A DNA stretch of 64,000 nt from Brevibacillus laterosporus DSM 25 (GTDB lineage Bacteria; Bacillota; Bacilli; Brevibacillales; Brevibacillaceae), in assembly GCF_002706795.1 (NCBI RefSeq), contig NZ_CP017705.1:2974501-3038500 (forward strand), read 5' to 3'. A model generated the notes under the pieces. The model did no database searches. It was not told where the DNA came from and saw only the letters and a program-made list of their open reading frames with translations. Every line of letters begins with the position of its first letter. The stretch's first letter is position 1. Shown piece by piece: positions 2,090-58,662 of this stretch. The translations under genes were made by a program, and so were the position numbers.

Positions 2090-2230
2090 AGGATACGCAT
2101 ACAATAAAAAGACCGCAGGTGCTGGTAACACCTACGGTTTGTGTACAAGAGACTGTCCCCTCAAAGGGGCGACTCATCTAATGTTGCAAGGGTGACTTCC
2201 CGAGTTGTCTAGGCTCAAGGGAGGTCATTT
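2090..2230 (+). ncRNA. Putative RatA/SR4-like antisense antitoxin RNA
   Basis: In txpA/ratA and bsrG/SR4 loci the antitoxin is a convergent antisense RNA that overlaps the 3' end of the toxin message. Here TATAAT at 2080-2085 would start such a transcript near 2091, crossing the toxin terminator hairpin and 3' end. The 3' end given is approximate; I see no clear terminator on this strand. Confidence 0.35.
2102..2140 (-). terminator. Terminator of the type I toxin mRNA
   Basis: Read leftwards, a hairpin pairs ACCGTAGGT with the complementary ACCTGCGGT (one G-U pair) and is followed by TTTTTATT. This GC-rich hairpin plus U-run is the usual 3' end of BsrG/TxpA-type toxin mRNAs. Confidence 0.7.
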
Positions 2231-2308
2231 CTTTTTTAGGTAGGTAAGCAGAGCTAAAATGAACATGCCAAACATGAGCATTAAAGTCAAAGCTTGATAT
2301 ACCTCCAT
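2225..2308 (-). CDS. Holin-like type I toxin peptide (TxpA/BsrG family)
   Basis: This 27-residue peptide, MEVYQALTLMLMFGMFILAL followed by LTYLKKK, is one membrane helix with a basic tail, matching Hol_Tox-type toxins. GGGGGTGAG lies just upstream of the ATG. The message would run from an extended -10 box (2394-2401 region) to the hairpin near 2102, about 280 nt, the size known for these toxins. In the B. subtilis skin element txpA also sits between the XkdM and XkdN homologues, so gene position supports the call. It probably stabilises the prophage. Confidence 0.85.
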   Translation of the reverse strand: MEVYQALTLMLMFGMFILALLTYLKKK

Positions 2309-2393
2309 GTTCTCACCCCCTTTCCCTATTGCTGGGGTAAAGCGAGGTGAGTCGACCACCCTTGAGAGAGTCGAGTCTATGTACTTGTGGAAA

Positions 2394-52221: not shown

Positions 52222-53178
52222 TTAGCTATCAATTATATTAGATTGTTTTTCTGATGGAGATGGTTTTTGGCTTAACAAGAAAACCATGATGAGAACAGAT
52301 AGAGTTCCTACAGATTGGAAAAATCCAAACGGTACATGTAAAAACAGGACGGACGTAATAATAGCTGCCAGCGGCTCTGTACAACCTAGCAAACTTGTTT
52401 CTTTTGGAGTAATATATCTAATACTTTCAAGATAGAGATAGAACGCAATTAAGGTACCAAAAATAACTACGAATCCAATTAATAAAAAGGCTTCTAATGT
52501 TACATTCTCAATACGAGCTAGCAATACGAATTTTTTTGTGGAGATAAAGTGTAAGATTGTTAATCCAATTCCCCCGATAATCATGCCCCAGCCAACCACT
52601 ATAGAGGAGGCCCATTTTTCCAATAAGCCCTTTGAATAAAGTGTATAGAACGCCAAAGACAAACCAGATAAAATGCCCCATATGATTGCTGGCTTCGATA
52701 CTGTTAAATTATCTGTTGATCCATTTGTAAGTAATAAAAAGGTTCCTAATAAGGCTAACAAAATAGAAACAGCATCTTTTTTGGTTGGAATATTTTTACA
52801 TTTTATAATAAGATAGAAAGTAATAAAAATAGGTGCTAAGTACTGTAATAAAGTTGCTACAGCGGCATTTCCTTCGTTAATCGAGGCAAAATATGTGTAC
52901 TGAACTCCTAGCATGCCTAATACTCCGAACAAAAGAATTTTTATTGATTCGTTTTTTTGCTTCCAAATCCCAAATATTTGATATCTATTTGGACTACATG
53001 ATGACAGAAGCAACAAGATCATGCCTGAAATCAATAGTCGGACCGTAACTAGCCACTCTGTAGAAATGTTTACTTGTTGGAAAAGCTGTTGAGCAACGGT
53101 ACCTGATATTCCCCATAAACCAGCACCTGTAACTACCATTATCATTCCTTTCATTCGATTCCTAGCTACTACTTTCAA
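52222..53178 (-). CDS. EamA/DMT-family metabolite exporter
   Basis: A 318-residue protein with ten hydrophobic segments in two EamA halves ('GAGLWGISGTVAQQLF' near 20 and 'FLIGFVVIFGTLIAFYLYLE' near 240; 'EPLAAIITSVLF' near 275). EamA proteins export amino acids and small metabolites. It is divergent from the diaminopropionate operon across a 180-bp shared promoter region, which suggests it exports that product. Confidence 0.85.
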   Translation of the reverse strand: MKVVARNRMKGMIMVVTGAGLWGISGTVAQQLFQQVNISTEWLVTVRLLISGMILLLLSSCSPNRYQIFGIWKQKNESIKILLFGVLGMLGVQYTYFASINEGNAAVATLLQYLAPIFITFYLIIKCKNIPTKKDAVSILLALLGTFLLLTNGSTDNLTVSKPAIIWGILSGLSLAFYTLYSKGLLEKWASSIVVGWGMIIGGIGLTILHFISTKKFVLLARIENVTLEAFLLIGFVVIFGTLIAFYLYLESIRYITPKETSLLGCTEPLAAIITSVLFLHVPFGFFQSVGTLSVLIMVFLLSQKPSPSEKQSNIIDS

Positions 53179-53357
53179 GTGAAAACCTCCTTTTTACAAA
53201 AAATCCAAAAAACTACAAATATATAATGAAATATATCATGAGTGATGTTAAAATAAAATGGGTTAAAAAGATTATAAATATTTTAAATTTTTTACAGATA
53301 GGTTTCGTATATATAGGTAGCTGATCATTTCAATTTAGCTGTAAAGGAGGAATTGAT
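53179..53357. promoter_or_regulatory. Divergent promoter region, exporter and diaminopropionate operon
   Basis: Strongly AT-rich; contains a near-palindrome (TATATAATGAAATATATCA, ~53220-53238) between the two start regions and several -10-like boxes in both directions. No Fur-like or known box recognised with confidence. GTAAAGGAGGAATTGAT is the ribosome site of the first operon gene. Confidence 0.45.
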
Positions 53358-54119
53358 GTGTTATCTGAGCTAAAAGTAGTACCAATTAGTCAAGTATTTT
53401 TACATGAAGAATACGAAGTAGAAAGGTTAGAAAAACTTTGCAGCAAAATTAAAAATGAGCAAAAAGTAAAAAATCCTCCTATCGCTTTGCAACTTGAACA
53501 TGACAAATATTTGATTCTTGATGGAGCTCATCGCACATTATCTTTACAAAAATTAAATTGCAAACGAATTGTGATACAGGTGGTTGATTTGGAATACCTC
53601 TCCATAGAAGCTTGGGCTCATCACATTTTAGATGCGGATAATCTCATTGAGGAATTACTACAGAACCCAGATTTATTGTGGAGAAAGGAAAAATATGCTG
53701 TAGATCCGATTGCGACCCTTTTCGTTAGGAATGAGAAGCACTATGTATACACTGCTTCAGATTTTCACATAGATGTAAAAAAGAGGATTAAGATTTGGAA
53801 GGAGATCGTTAATTCTTATTCCAGTAAATATAAATTTGATCGTATAACAGCAGGGCAATCGCCTGTTGATAGAGGCATTATTTTTCAATATCCTGCTTTT
53901 CATATTGATCAAATTAAAAATATAGTGGATGAAAACCTCCTTTTACCAGCAGGTGTAACAAAATTTACCCTTACTTGTGGGCGGATTTTGAATTTAAACA
54001 TTCCGCTCAGTTTTTTAATTCGAGAAGATTACGTAGAAGAGGATTGGTTCGAATTGCTGGAATTATGGAGGACTTCTATAAGGCTTTATACTGACCCAGT
54101 TTTTTTGTGTGAAATTTAA
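53358..54119 (+). CDS. sbnI: SbnI-like free L-serine kinase (ParB/Srx fold)
   Basis: A 253-residue protein, the size of staphylococcal SbnI (~254). An N-terminal ParB/sulfiredoxin-like fold has 'KVVPISQVFLHEEYEVERLE' (acidic cluster Glu17-Glu20 for catalysis) and 'LILDGAHRTLSLQKL' (Asp55-His58-Arg59 nucleotide/phosphate site), followed by an SbnI-type C-terminal half. SbnI makes O-phospho-L-serine from L-serine, the substrate of SbnA. GTG start after AAAGGAGG. First gene of a four-gene operon. Confidence 0.82.
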   Translation: MLSELKVVPISQVFLHEEYEVERLEKLCSKIKNEQKVKNPPIALQLEHDKYLILDGAHRTLSLQKLNCKRIVIQVVDLEYLSIEAWAHHILDADNLIEELLQNPDLLWRKEKYAVDPIATLFVRNEKHYVYTASDFHIDVKKRIKIWKEIVNSYSSKYKFDRITAGQSPVDRGIIFQYPAFHIDQIKNIVDENLLLPAGVTKFTLTCGRILNLNIPLSFLIREDYVEEDWFELLELWRTSIRLYTDPVFLCEI

Positions 54120-54155
54120 GAGAGGGAAATGTAAAAAAAGAGGAGGGGACTTTAG

Positions 54156-55037
54156 GTGGAGACCAAAAAGGCAAAAGCTCATCTATTACTGACAGAGGGA
54201 AGTTTTCACGCTGTCTATTTAATTAGGGATTGGTATGAAAGCTTTAAAGATACAACTTCATTCAAGGGCATTGTTATTAGAGACACGCAAGATACCAGCG
54301 GGCAAAAGGTACAATTTCACAGTACCTACTCTGGTAAAAAGCAACTCACAGAGAGTGAATACAATGAGCTTCTTTTGTTATATGGAACCATCAGTGAAGC
54401 AGAAAAAAGCATGATGACATTATACGGAATCCCCTCCTATCCCGCTGAGGTCATTCCACATGTCCATTATAGTGGACCCAATTTGAATCATGCTGATATG
54501 GAAGTGTTCATAGCTAATTTGGCCAAAAAGTATGATCTCACTGTATACATTTTTTTGGATCAAATTTTAAAACCTTGGTGGATTGAGTATACAGATGGCA
54601 ACATTATTAATGCCCATTCGGCCGTTCTCCCCTATGCGAGAGGAATGTATGCCATCGAAAATATGGCTGTAAAAGGTAATGAGAAAGACTTTCAAAGAGC
54701 TACTGGAGCTTCCATACATTATGTGGATAACGGAATAGATACAGGTCCAATTATTAGAGCGGTAAGGATAAAGGAACCTTTTCGTTATGAATCTATTTGG
54801 GAAGTTAAAGCTACTTGCTATCAATTAGCTTTTGAGCTTTTGGTCAATCAGGCGAGAGTAGAATTTGAAAACCCTGATTTGCAATATGTAGGGATCAAAT
54901 GTGATGTAAGTAGCTTGGGAGAAAATTTTTTAAGTAAAAATTTTGATGAGGATAAAAAGAAGATAGCCCAGGAACAATTTCTATCAATGAAAAAGTCTCA
55001 AATGTCATTCAAAAAAGCATGGGAGGCGAGAACATGA
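54156..55037 (+). CDS. Formyltransferase-fold enzyme (Fmt/PurN-like)
   Basis: A 293-residue product. Residues 85-210 carry the formyltransferase core: 'NAHSAVLPYARGMYAIENM' and 'GASIHYVDNGIDTGPII', giving Asn152, His154 and Asp195, the N-H-D catalytic set of 10-formyl-tetrahydrofolate enzymes. The first ~85 and last ~80 residues do not match Fmt or PurN as I recall them. GTG start after AGGAGGGG; its stop overlaps the SbnA-like gene (ATGA). It likely formylates an amino group of the pathway product or a related amine. Not part of the staphyloferrin B or zwittermicin sets I know. Confidence 0.8.
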   Translation: METKKAKAHLLLTEGSFHAVYLIRDWYESFKDTTSFKGIVIRDTQDTSGQKVQFHSTYSGKKQLTESEYNELLLLYGTISEAEKSMMTLYGIPSYPAEVIPHVHYSGPNLNHADMEVFIANLAKKYDLTVYIFLDQILKPWWIEYTDGNIINAHSAVLPYARGMYAIENMAVKGNEKDFQRATGASIHYVDNGIDTGPIIRAVRIKEPFRYESIWEVKATCYQLAFELLVNQARVEFENPDLQYVGIKCDVSSLGENFLSKNFDEDKKKIAQEQFLSMKKSQMSFKKAWEART

Positions 55038-56020
55038 TTTATGAAAGTGCTCTAGAACTAATAGGGAATACACCGGTTGTTAAGCTTAAACATTTAGTAC
55101 AGCGTGAAAATAGCGAATTGTTCGTAAAACTAGAGGGCTTTAATCCTGGTGGTAGCTCAAAAGATAGGGTTGCCAAACGTATCATTGAGTTTGCTGAAAA
55201 AAATGGACATTTGAAACCAAATGGAACAATTGTTGAGTCCTCATCAGGCAATCTGGCTATAGGACTAGCTATGGTGGCTAAGATGAAAGGCTATCAAATG
55301 ATTTGTGTAGTAGATCCTAAGATTAGCAAGGTCAATTTGAACCTGATTAAAGCATTTGGAGCACAGGTTCATATGGTAGATAAGTCAGATGAGCATGGTA
55401 ATTATTTGAAAACAAGATTGGCTACGGCACAACTATTAGAGAGCTCGATAGAGGGGGCTTATTGGCCAAATCAATATAACAATCCAGAAAATCCTAAAGC
55501 GTATATGCAGTCATTAGCCCGTGAAATCCATAGTGATTTTCAGGATACATTAGATTGGATTGTATGCCCGGTTGGTACAGCAGGATTAATAACAGGAGTA
55601 GCAACGGAAATGAAAAAACTAAGCCCTTCTGTGAAAATTTTAGCTGTAGACGCTGTAGGATCGGTGATTTTTGGTGGGCAACCAGGTCCTCGAAGATTGC
55701 TTGGTATTGGAAATGCAATCGTTCCCGGCAATTTAGATAAAAGTTTGTATGATCAATTAAGCTATGTAAATGATGCAGATGCGTTTTATATCACAAGGCA
55801 ACTAGTATTACAGGAAGGACTACTTGTTGGTGGGTCATCAGGGGCAACTGTTTGTGCTGCTTTACGCTTACTGGAGGATTTACCTAAAGGACAAAGAGTA
55901 TTAGCAATCCTGCCTGATAGAGGAGATAGATACTATAGCACCATTTTTTCAGATGAATGGATGAGCGAACATGAAATTACATTGCCTACATCCATTTATA
56001 AATCTGTTTCGATTAAATAA
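55034..56020 (+). CDS. sbnA: SbnA-like O-phosphoserine/glutamate condensing enzyme
   Basis: A 328-residue PLP enzyme of the cysteine-synthase fold, the size of SbnA. 'NPGGSSKDRVAKR' holds the PLP lysine (Lys43); 'ESSSGNLAIGLA' and 'VGGSSGATVCAAL' are the phosphate-binding loops. SbnA joins O-phospho-L-serine and L-glutamate to N-(1-amino-1-carboxy-2-ethyl)-glutamate. SbnI and SbnB neighbours decide for SbnA over CysK/CysM. ATG 55034 follows GGGAGGCGA and overlaps the previous stop. Confidence 0.85.
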   Translation: MIYESALELIGNTPVVKLKHLVQRENSELFVKLEGFNPGGSSKDRVAKRIIEFAEKNGHLKPNGTIVESSSGNLAIGLAMVAKMKGYQMICVVDPKISKVNLNLIKAFGAQVHMVDKSDEHGNYLKTRLATAQLLESSIEGAYWPNQYNNPENPKAYMQSLAREIHSDFQDTLDWIVCPVGTAGLITGVATEMKKLSPSVKILAVDAVGSVIFGGQPGPRRLLGIGNAIVPGNLDKSLYDQLSYVNDADAFYITRQLVLQEGLLVGGSSGATVCAALRLLEDLPKGQRVLAILPDRGDRYYSTIFSDEWMSEHEITLPTSIYKSVSIK

Positions 56021-56044
56021 AGCGATAGTGATAAAGGAGTGGTT

Positions 56045-57067
56045 ATGATGTTAGTGGAAACAAAGCCAGAATTAATCTATCTGAACAAGCAAGATATTAT
56101 TAATGTAGGTGGCTATAAGTCTGAGATATACGTTCAAGCTATAAAACAAGCTCTTGCACTACATTCAGAAAAGAACTTTAGTCAGCCATTAAAACCGTAT
56201 TTGAAGACAAATAAAAAAGATGAGCATATCGCAGATCGAATCATAGCTATGCCGGCCTACTTGGGAGAACCTTCTATTTCAGGAATCAAGTGGATTGGAA
56301 GTAAGTTTTCAAATCCAACGAAAAAAAACATGGAAAGAGCTAGTGCTTTGATCATTTTAAATGATCCTGAAACGAACTTCCCCATTGCGATTTTAGAGGG
56401 CAGTGTTATCAGTGCCATGAGAACTGCGGCAGTAACAGTAGTAGCAACGGAATATTTGGCTAAAAAAGGGTTCCAACATTTATCCGTTATAGGTTGTGGA
56501 TTAATTGCTAAGATGCAAATAAATTCTTTATTGGAACAGTTTGACCATATAAAGAACGTACATTTGTTTGATTTAGATTTACAAAAGGCTGAGATGTTTG
56601 GTAAGGAGATGCAACAGCGCTTTAGTCATGTTGTATTCCAAATTCATCAATCAGCTCAAAGTGCGGTAGAGAATGCTGAAGTTTTAGTCACTTGCACAGT
56701 AACAGACCAGCCTTATATTAAAGCAGAGTGGATTCAAAAAGGGACATTTGTAAGTAACATTTCTATTATGGATATAGAGAAGAAAGCTTTCTTACGGGCG
56801 GATAAAGTGGTTGTTGATGACTGGGATCAATCCAATCGAGAGAAAAAAATTATTAATCAATTAGTATTAGAAGGAAAGTTTTCAAAAGAAATGCTACATG
56901 CAGAGCTAGGGGATATTATTACTAATAAAAAAGCAGGCCGAGAAACCGATGACGAGATCATCATTCTAAATCCGATGGGGATGGCTATAGAGGATATCTC
57001 TTGCGCCTATGAAATATATAAAAAAGCACGGCAAGAAAAAATCGGCACAACATTGAGCCTGTACTAA
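56045..57067 (+). CDS. sbnB: SbnB-like NAD-dependent dehydrogenase (L-Dap release)
   Basis: A 340-residue ornithine-cyclodeaminase-family protein, size as SbnB. N-terminal 'LIYLNKQDIINVGGYKSEIY' and Rossmann motif 'LSVIGCGLIAKMQIN' are typical; 'SGIKWIGSKFSNPTKKNMER' matches SbnB substrate-side residues. SbnB oxidatively cleaves the SbnA product to L-2,3-diaminopropionate and 2-oxoglutarate. AAAGGAG lies five bases before ATG 56045 (ATG 56048 also possible). Last gene of the operon. Confidence 0.85.
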   Translation: MMLVETKPELIYLNKQDIINVGGYKSEIYVQAIKQALALHSEKNFSQPLKPYLKTNKKDEHIADRIIAMPAYLGEPSISGIKWIGSKFSNPTKKNMERASALIILNDPETNFPIAILEGSVISAMRTAAVTVVATEYLAKKGFQHLSVIGCGLIAKMQINSLLEQFDHIKNVHLFDLDLQKAEMFGKEMQQRFSHVVFQIHQSAQSAVENAEVLVTCTVTDQPYIKAEWIQKGTFVSNISIMDIEKKAFLRADKVVVDDWDQSNREKKIINQLVLEGKFSKEMLHAELGDIITNKKAGRETDDEIIILNPMGMAIEDISCAYEIYKKARQEKIGTTLSLY

Positions 57068-57125
57068 ATGGAATGAAAATTAAGTAATGGGCTAGGCTGG
57101 ATGGAAACGATTTTGTAATGGACAA

Positions 57126-57172
57126 AGAAGCACATTTTTGACGCTAGTAGTCAAACAATGTGCTTTTTTTTA
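57126..57172 (+). terminator. Terminator of the diaminopropionate operon
   Basis: GAAGCACATT...AATGTGCTT with an inner TTTGAC/GTCAAA stem, followed by eight T. Confidence 0.85.
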
Positions 57173-57237
57173 TTTACCTTATTTCTTTTCCACGCTTTAC
57201 ATATACATGGTGTAGAGGGGAAAAGGAGGGATCTTGG

Positions 57238-58662
57238 ATGAACCAGGAGGAACAACGTCAACTGGAGTATGCGATTGATGAAATAACGGAAATTGCCAAA
57301 GGGTTTGGCTTAGATTTTTATCCCATGCGGTATGAGATATGCCCAGCAGAGATTATTTATACATTTGGGGCCTATGGTATGCCGACCAGATATTCGCATT
57401 GGTCATTTGGAAAAAGCTTCTATAAAATGAAGCTTCAGTATGATTTAAATCTCAGCAAAATTTATGAATTAGTGATTAACTCTAATCCATGCTATGCTTT
57501 TTTATTAGACGGAAATAGCTTGATCCAAAATAAATTAATCGTGGCCCATGTACTGGCTCACTGCGATTTTTTCAAGAATAACGTACGCTTTAGCAATACC
57601 AATCGCAATATGGTAGAGAGCATGGCAGCTAGTGCTGATCGTATTCGGGAATACGAGATTGCCTATGGAAAAGAGAAAGTGGAGGAGCTATTGGATGCTT
57701 GCATCGGAATTCAGGAGCATATTGATCCAAGACTGATCCAGCCCAACAAAGAAAGAGCAAAACCATATGGAAATGAGACGGATGCCCCTAAGATTTCTAA
57801 GCCTAGTTCGCCCTATGATGATTTATGGAAGTTAGATCAAGCAGACCTACAAACAGATGTTGCTTCTAATCAACCACAACGGTTTCCTGCGCAACCGGAG
57901 AAAGATCTGCTCTGGTTTATCCAGGAATATAGCCCATATTTGGCACCATGGCAACGCGATATCATGACTATTATACGCGATGAAATGCTCTATTTTTGGC
58001 CACAAATGGAAACGAAGATTATGAATGAAGGCTGGGCTTCCTTTTGGCATTGTCGGATTCTTCGGGAGATGGATTTGACCGAAGCTGAAACAATCGAATT
58101 TGCTAAGCTACACTCTTCAGTGATACAGCCATCTACTACCAGCATTAATCCGTATCATTTAGGCCTGAAAATGTTTGAGGATATTGAGATGCGTTTTAAT
58201 AATCCTACGAAAGAAGAACAGGAGCGTTTCGGTCGCAAGCCAAATCAAGGACTGGAAAAAATCTTTGAGGTGCGTGAACTGGATGGAGATATTTCGTTTA
58301 TCCGTAACTATCTGACAGAAGACCTCGTAAGGCAATTGGATATGTATACATTCGGAAAGCAGGGGAACGATTGGGTGATCACACAAAAACAGTGGGAGCT
58401 GGTGCGTGATCAATTAGCACTTTCTCGTGTAAATGGAGGCTTCCCGTACTTGATCGTACAAGATGGTGACTACCTCCGTAGCGGAGAATTGTATATCAAG
58501 CATCTATATGAAGGATTAGAGCTAGATGTGAAATACGTTGAGAAAACCTTACCGTACGTCTTCACGATATGGGGTAAAAATGTACACATTGAGACTACAT
58601 TAGATGGTCGGTCTGTGGTTTTTAGCTACGATGGAAAAAAGGTTCATCGGCGGTTTTTATAG
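57238..58662 (+). CDS. spoVR: SpoVR family protein
   Basis: A 474-residue protein matching SpoVR, involved in spore cortex formation in B. subtilis: '[20 protein letters not shown]', '[14 protein letters not shown]', '[15 protein letters not shown]' and the C-terminal SpoVR domain are visible. ATG 57238 is chosen for AAAAGGAGGG eight bases upstream. It supports a sporulating host. Monocistronic. Confidence 0.93.

Follow-up and report, generated by a model that had tools for sequence, protein, structure and literature searches.

A putative diaminopropionate module joined to a rare formyltransferase and an EamA-family exporter in Brevibacillus laterosporus

The window analysed here is a stretch of 64,000 nucleotides from Brevibacillus laterosporus DSM 25, positions 2974501–3038500 of NZ_CP017705.1, the single 5.40 Mb contig of this genome (G000). 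Within it we describe a cassette of five genes: an operon encoding relatives of SbnI, SbnA and SbnB, which are predicted enzymes of L-2,3-diaminopropionate (Dap) synthesis, together with a formyltransferase (FT), and a divergent gene for an EamA-family exporter. The SbnI-like gene (53358–54119, plus strand, GTG start) is followed on the same strand by the FT gene (54156–55037, GTG start), which encodes a putative N-formyltransferase of the 10-formyl-tetrahydrofolate type, by a gene for a divergent SbnA-type pyridoxal phosphate enzyme (55034–56020), and by a gene for an SbnB-type NAD-dependent dehydrogenase (56039–57067, GTG start). The successive intergenic gaps are 36, −4 and 18 bases; the sbnA start, the ATG of an ATGA, lies in a 4-base overlap with the FT stop (the mechanical open reading frame of sbnA begins at 55019). 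Downstream lies an intrinsic terminator with a U run (57124–57169, plus strand), whose computed fold has an energy of −20.5 kcal/mol and a z score of −6.15, with none of 200 shuffles equally good. The four genes are therefore one transcription-unit-like block with one terminator, and the tight packing, ATGA overlap and terminator described in the initial annotation are borne out.

The EamA gene (52222–53178, minus strand, TTG start) faces the operon across a common promoter/operator region at 53179–53357. The coordinates confirm this arrangement, which had also been described before, and the region is 95% identical (mean column identity) in a 251-column alignment that spans it in three genomes. 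It contains an AT-rich imperfect palindrome, noted by eye, near 53219–53236. Scans for promoters and terminators gave no more matches than shuffles give; the terminator is visible in the fold instead. Fur regulation was considered and rejected: the promoter region 53179–53357 has no match with three or fewer mismatches to the Fur-box-like sequence TGATAATNATTATCA, and the window has 8 such matches against 11.05 expected. A riboswitch was likewise rejected, since only one Rfam match within the window reaches the gathering score, and this is to the BsrG small-RNA family, far off at 2114–2385 (minus strand, 120.9 bits). The G+C content of the cassette is 33–39%, compared with 40–43% directly upstream.

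Both SbnB and SbnA pass their NCBIfam equivalog cut-offs, SbnB with 403.9 bits against 326.9 (TIGR03944) and SbnA with 399.7 bits against 349.95 (TIGR03945), the latter score lying below those of two SbnA proteins from clusters of the nonribosomal peptide synthetase (NRPS)-independent siderophore (NIS) type (440.6 and 444.9 bits). The solved relatives of SbnA are the Staphylococcus aureus SbnA structures 5d84–5d87, and SbnB matches the S. aureus structure 4m54, listed as a putative ornithine cyclodeaminase, with an E value of 9.6e-137. For the SbnI-like protein the structural relatives are S. aureus SbnI (PDB 5ujd and 6nr6; E about 1e-38 to 1e-37). Glu20 and Asp58 of SbnI are cited as required for kinase activity (PMC9641203), and both are kept, as the aligned Glu17 and Asp55. 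The SbnI-like protein is probably a free-serine kinase that yields O-phospho-L-serine, and possibly also a regulator. Homology and conserved residues thus assign all three proteins as predicted Dap enzymes.

By sequence identity the window SbnB resembles its NIS-type counterparts (60–61%, to partners in three genomes) much more than those from NRPS clusters (32–34%), and SbnA shows the same tendency (41–44% against 33–39%). In trees, the SbnA and SbnB proteins of the three FT-bearing sets described below group with the NIS type at splits of 100/100, with long branches flagged.

FT matches PF00551 with 45.1 bits, above the gathering score of 26.1, and its AlphaFold2 model is of good quality (mean per-residue confidence, pLDDT, 82.3; predicted template modelling score, pTM, 0.83). 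The best matches of the model in the PDB are methionyl-tRNA formyltransferase (Fmt) and ArnA, with Z about 15; the formylation (F) domain of LgrA stands lower in the list, at 12.9. Asn152, His154 and Asp195 are invariant in all ten aligned family members, and from the alignment to PurN we take this Asn-x-His...Asp arrangement to be catalytic, as it is in PurN itself. The fold and these residues support the assignment of FT as an N-formyltransferase. With Fmt, ArnA, the sugar N-formyltransferases and the LgrA F domain it shares the fold and the Asn/His/Asp triad; it differs in its low identity to them (12–22% in the 50 structure alignments listed) and in having its own C-terminal helix, as a separate, rare family. 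An ordinary PurN, Fmt or PurU was rejected, since all five NCBIfam matches lie far under their cut-offs, and a defence gene was rejected as PADLOC gave no match.

Close relatives of FT are few. A pattern-seeded scan with the single protein across 84,980 species, which reaches close relatives only, returned four, namely B. laterosporus and three cyanobacteria at 38–41% identity. Among 72,556 plasmid records 9 match, none over 80% of FT, and the six that are annotated are PurN or PurU. A search of the window genome gave weak matches at two further loci. With an FT profile at 1e-20, the window genome is the sole match in a 398-genome sample of its phylum.

The divergent gene encodes a protein with two EamA units (PF00892, E 1.3e-39, 136 bits), and it is kept in all three genomes that carry the FT set, with a ratio of nonsynonymous to synonymous substitution rates (dN/dS) of 0.08–0.11. 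A precedent is provided by AexA (YdeD) of Bacillus subtilis, an EamA-family protein that exports C3 amino acids including Dap, which inhibits growth of B. subtilis, and that is controlled by the AraC-type regulator AerA (PMC11005379). The likeness to AexA, in the two EamA units and in the substrate class proposed here, is one of family, orthology not having been tested; the two differ in that AexA is under AraC-type control, whereas there is no AraC-type gene among the window neighbours scanned. On this precedent, the EamA protein would export the product of the cassette.

The five genes occur in the same order in two further genomes, G003 and G004, so that the set, FT and EamA included, is intact and free of internal stops in three of the five genus genomes. 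It is flanked by a DJ-1/PfpI gene in both and by spoVR in G003, and sbnB is followed by an IS-like insertion in G003 and by a recombinase gene in G004. Over 15 gene pairs (five cassette genes in three genomes) dN/dS is 0.03–0.16, compared with 0.01–0.02 for a flanking control gene; the cassette therefore evolves faster than this neighbour, yet under constraint. It is kept by selection though present in only three of the five genomes. In G002 the interval from the DJ-1 gene to spoVR is occupied by other genes and lacks the cassette, and the site is thus variable; in G001 the cassette was found neither by the FT search nor at spoVR. G001 does have a staphyloferrin-B-type sbn cluster (L092:1-12194) with sbnA, sbnB, three NIS synthetases, a major facilitator superfamily (MFS) gene and sbnI. 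Given such a cluster in the genus, and SbnA and SbnB of the same type in the window, the cassette could be imagined as what remains of a staphyloferrin B cluster in decay, its synthetases already gone. The intact genes and low dN/dS ratios in three genomes make this very improbable, as does the lack of any FT in those parts of the five NIS clusters that were read, and we disfavour it.

Across the family, SbnI occurs in 18 of 39 genomes, and its settings are of four kinds: three with FT (G000, G003, G004), five in staphyloferrin-B-type NIS clusters (G001, G016, G019, G021 and G027, the stretches of G019 and G021 ending before sbnA/sbnB), nine in NRPS/polyketide synthase (PKS) clusters, and one, in G033, where a shortened SbnI stands alone. 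The class of the nine was assigned by a BLAST match to an NRPS of the window genome for five (one of them weak, at 24% identity) and by eye from common neighbours for four. In all nine the order is sbnA-sbnB-sbnI, with sbnI directly after sbnB, and their content suggests edeine-like clusters. No FT gene was seen in the stretches covering these nine. In the phylum sample the window genome is also the sole SbnI match at E 1e-12. The initial annotation had suggested looking in other genomes for the sbnI-FT-sbnA-sbnB set without NRPS genes; it is kept in three of the 39 family genomes, and because of this and of the sole matches in the phylum sample, the FT form appears to be rare and, within the genomes sampled, limited to the B. 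laterosporus group.

We propose that the cassette encodes a self-contained pathway. SbnI would phosphorylate free serine to O-phospho-L-serine, which SbnA would couple with L-glutamate to give N-(2-amino-2-carboxyethyl)-L-glutamate; from this, SbnB would oxidatively release L-Dap, or a very close analogue, and 2-oxoglutarate in an NAD-dependent reaction. FT would move a formyl group from 10-formyl-tetrahydrofolate onto an amine of the product, most likely the side-chain N3, to give an N3-formyl-Dap-like compound (+28 Da), and EamA would export it, thereby also protecting the cell. The SbnI, SbnA and SbnB steps are those expected of known families. Formylation is suggested by the fold, residues and operon position of FT, and export by the precedent of AexA; gene order and precedent likewise point to a Dap-like amine as the acceptor of FT and to the order of the steps. 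We put the probability of this pathway, in which L-Dap or a close analogue is N-formylated and exported through EamA, at roughly 0.45. That the set makes and exports L-Dap or an N-formyl-Dap-like compound had been suggested in the initial annotation; the suggestion gains from the intact Dap module without local NRPS or NIS genes, from its presence in three of five genomes and from AexA, and loses from the score of SbnI, a substitution in SbnA, an FT family without ties to Dap and a Dap-type NRPS/PKS cluster in the genome. These last points, which weigh against the pathway, are as follows.

SbnI scores only 174.7 bits against a cut-off of 350 (NF033589) despite an E value of 2.1e-51 over nearly its full length, and is therefore counted as a divergent, SbnI-like protein without SbnI equivalog status. 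Its identities to the staphyloferrin (NIS) type (33–41%) and the NRPS type (35–37%) favour neither, and in the tree the SbnI proteins of the FT set group with neither type.

SbnA has changed in a way that SbnB has not. Relative to positions invariant in six NIS and NRPS proteins, two of which are near-identical, the FT-set proteins have uniform changes at 20 positions in SbnA and 3 in SbnB (one a gap). One of these is Ser185 of S. aureus SbnA, which is Ser in all six NIS and NRPS proteins and Gly181 in all three FT-set proteins; Gly is also found here in three cysteine-synthase-like proteins of the window genome. Ser185 is credited, along with Arg132 and Tyr152, with the selection of O-phosphoserine by SbnA (PMC12414870), and given this substitution and the 20 changed positions, either Dap or a compound closely similar to it could be the product. 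SbnA may thus have been re-tuned, with SbnB continuing to expect a glutamate adduct. Taken further, a re-tuned SbnA could make a Dap analogue from another donor (for example O-acetyl or another activated serine) or another amine, which would then be formylated and exported; the lower identity of SbnA than of SbnB to staphyloferrin-type counterparts fits with this. We nevertheless regard it as improbable, given that the equivalents of Arg132 and Tyr152 are kept, that SbnI, the expected maker of O-phosphoserine, is kept, that there is little change in SbnB, for which the glutamate adduct is required, and that SbnA passes the TIGR03945 cut-off.

The FT family is found elsewhere without Dap genes. 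In cyanobacteria its profile matches one of 386 phylum-sample genomes (the centre itself) and 6 of 243 genomes of its order. A small SET-domain gene, and no Dap gene, adjoins FT in six of seven intact loci (L030, L031, L032, L101, L103 and L104); at the seventh, the neighbours resemble by eye a methyltransferase, a P450 and an amidinotransferase, with no Pfam match for the methyltransferase- and amidinotransferase-like ones. None of three FT-bearing cyanobacterial genomes tested has an SbnB over cut-off. The family as such is therefore not tied to Dap: it is sparse and amine-formyltransferase-like, and only the operon described here links it to Dap. This could mean that unformylated L-Dap is made and exported, as AexA exports Dap itself, and that FT has an unrelated amine as its substrate or does no more than detoxify excess Dap by N-formylating it. 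However, in all three genomes the FT gene is part of the operon, with sbnI before it and sbnA after it, and in the window it overlaps sbnA by 4 bases, and we consider that the unformylated product is a quite improbable outcome.

The remaining points concern possible users of Dap elsewhere in the genome. It had been noted initially that neither an NRPS nor a NIS synthetase lies on either side of the operon. This holds locally: the nearest of 102 condensation-domain matches is at 3172601, about 141 kb away, and the nearer of two IucA/IucC matches is at 3071583, about 40 kb away. No NRPS/PKS cluster surrounds the operon, with the condensation domain as NRPS marker (NRPS genes lacking it were not searched for), and no SbnC/E/F NIS synthetase, SbnH decarboxylase or SbnG citrate synthase was found beside it. 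It does not hold for the genome as a whole, which is rich in NRPS genes; another pair of sbnA and sbnB lies within an NRPS/PKS cluster at 5.16–5.22 Mb, about 2.1 Mb away (G000:C1:5155001-5235000, L041–L044). There SbnA scores about 404.6–404.8 bits and the SbnB-like protein 311.7 bits, under the cut-off of 326.9. Codes of the DIW type, which we take to specify a diamino acid (diaminobutyrate, Dab, or Dap-like), are found in 2 of 73 adenylation-domain segments, both in this cluster; the segments come from stretches covering all 102 condensation matches, and the codes were read from motif columns rather than with a predictor. The initial annotation had taken a Dap-using NRPS elsewhere under the same regulation as telling against it; one of Dap type is indeed present, but with sbnA and sbnB of its own.

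An SbnI was not seen in this cluster; at E 1e-12, G000 has a single SbnI match, the one in the window. Since the cluster has sbnA and sbnB and no sbnI, supply in trans is possible, and this is the main rival to the pathway proposed above: the cassette, and above all SbnI, would supply the NRPS/PKS cluster with O-phosphoserine, Dap or formyl-Dap. In the nine related clusters sbnI directly follows sbnB, and it is missing here; G000, G003 and G004 have one SbnI match each; and a further SbnB scoring about 313 bits is present in both G003 (inside an NRPS locus) and G004, whereas neither G001 nor G002 shows another match that strong. The placing of both DIW-type codes agrees with this. Several points speak for a different role: sbnA and sbnB are already present in the cluster, there would be no need for a second complete sbnA-sbnB or for an exporter gene, the window SbnA and SbnB are of the staphyloferrin and not the NRPS type, and the joint occurrence in three closely related genomes could simply reflect their kinship. 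Ordinary serine synthesis also yields O-phosphoserine, which counts against such a supply too. We therefore consider it unlikely, though with a real chance of being correct.

About 40 kb downstream of the cassette lies an operon with the order asbABCDEF, petrobactin-like (L051:7172-14276; G000 about 3071–3078 kb). Its NIS genes were considered as a Dap user and rejected: order and sizes, judged by eye, fit asbABCDEF, a pathway that we take to use spermidine and not Dap.

Comparison with known systems places the set as a variation on Dap biosynthesis with an added FT. It shares with the staphyloferrin B module (S. aureus sbn, and the G001 cluster) the SbnA/SbnB/SbnI trio, the close likeness of SbnB and the SbnI kinase residues, and differs in having no adjacent SbnC/D/E/F/G/H, an inserted FT, an SbnA without Ser185, an EamA gene in place of an MFS exporter gene, and no Fur box found. 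With the edeine-like NRPS/PKS clusters of Brevibacillus kin it shares the Dap module, edeB of edeine being SbnI-like (PMC9641203); these differ from it in their adjacent NRPS/PKS genes, low SbnB identity (33–34%) and gene order, and in that no FT was seen in the nine stretches. A further parallel is the gvg pathway of Pseudomonas, which makes the formylated non-protein amino acid 4-formylaminooxyvinylglycine (FVG) from a cluster that includes the formyltransferase gene gvgI and LysE transporter genes (PMC8064604). The likeness, one of description with no gvg protein compared by sequence, lies in a small non-protein amino acid, a formyltransferase gene and amino-acid transporter genes; gvg differs in its carbamoyltransferase, other genes and LysE transporters, and no carbamoyltransferase-type gvg gene is present among the neighbours scanned. 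A literature search for Dap with a formyltransferase and sbnA/sbnB found nothing of this kind, which is weak evidence of absence as subscription papers were mostly outside its reach; a paper on NRPS formylation proved unrelated, and the available part of the fusadapamides paper does not mention 'formyl'.

N3-acyl-Dap compounds such as albizziin and FMDP are glutamine-like, and the likeliest use of the product is therefore as an antimetabolite. We tentatively suggest, while thinking it somewhat less likely than not, that a staphyloferrin-B-type Dap module became detached from the making of siderophores and acquired a rare FT and an EamA exporter as partners. Its product would be a formylated diamino acid not described before (N3-formyl-Dap, or an analogue from a re-tuned SbnA) that would serve the B. 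laterosporus group as a glutamine-like antimetabolite or signal. The cassette keeps a siderophore-pathway Dap trio without an adjacent siderophore or peptide synthetase, and pairs it with an FT whose family has, as far as we found, no assigned function. If Dap is formylated, this would be a new small amino-acid metabolite, and would give a first functional lead for the cyanobacterial members of the FT family. The natural variant at Ser185 is of relevance since SbnA is pursued as an antibacterial target (PMC12414870).

Three further observations were made. Genes immediately upstream of the window (L046) look phage-like by eye. In an Okeania genome a second FT copy (G454:C124:55390-56097; L091, L094) seems decayed, because it has an in-frame stop, and reading frames that by eye are transposase-like separate it from its C-terminal part. 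Finally, spoVR, which adjoins the cassette in the window (57160–58662) and is intact there and in G003 and G002, is interrupted in two relatives (L048:11016-12643 and L141:11872-19334), after about residue 102 in G004, with the remainder not found within the stretch examined, and after about residue 272 in G001. In both cases the interrupting DNA carries a gene for a large serine recombinase with Resolvase and Recombinase domains, and the insertions resemble excisable elements lodged in a sporulation gene.

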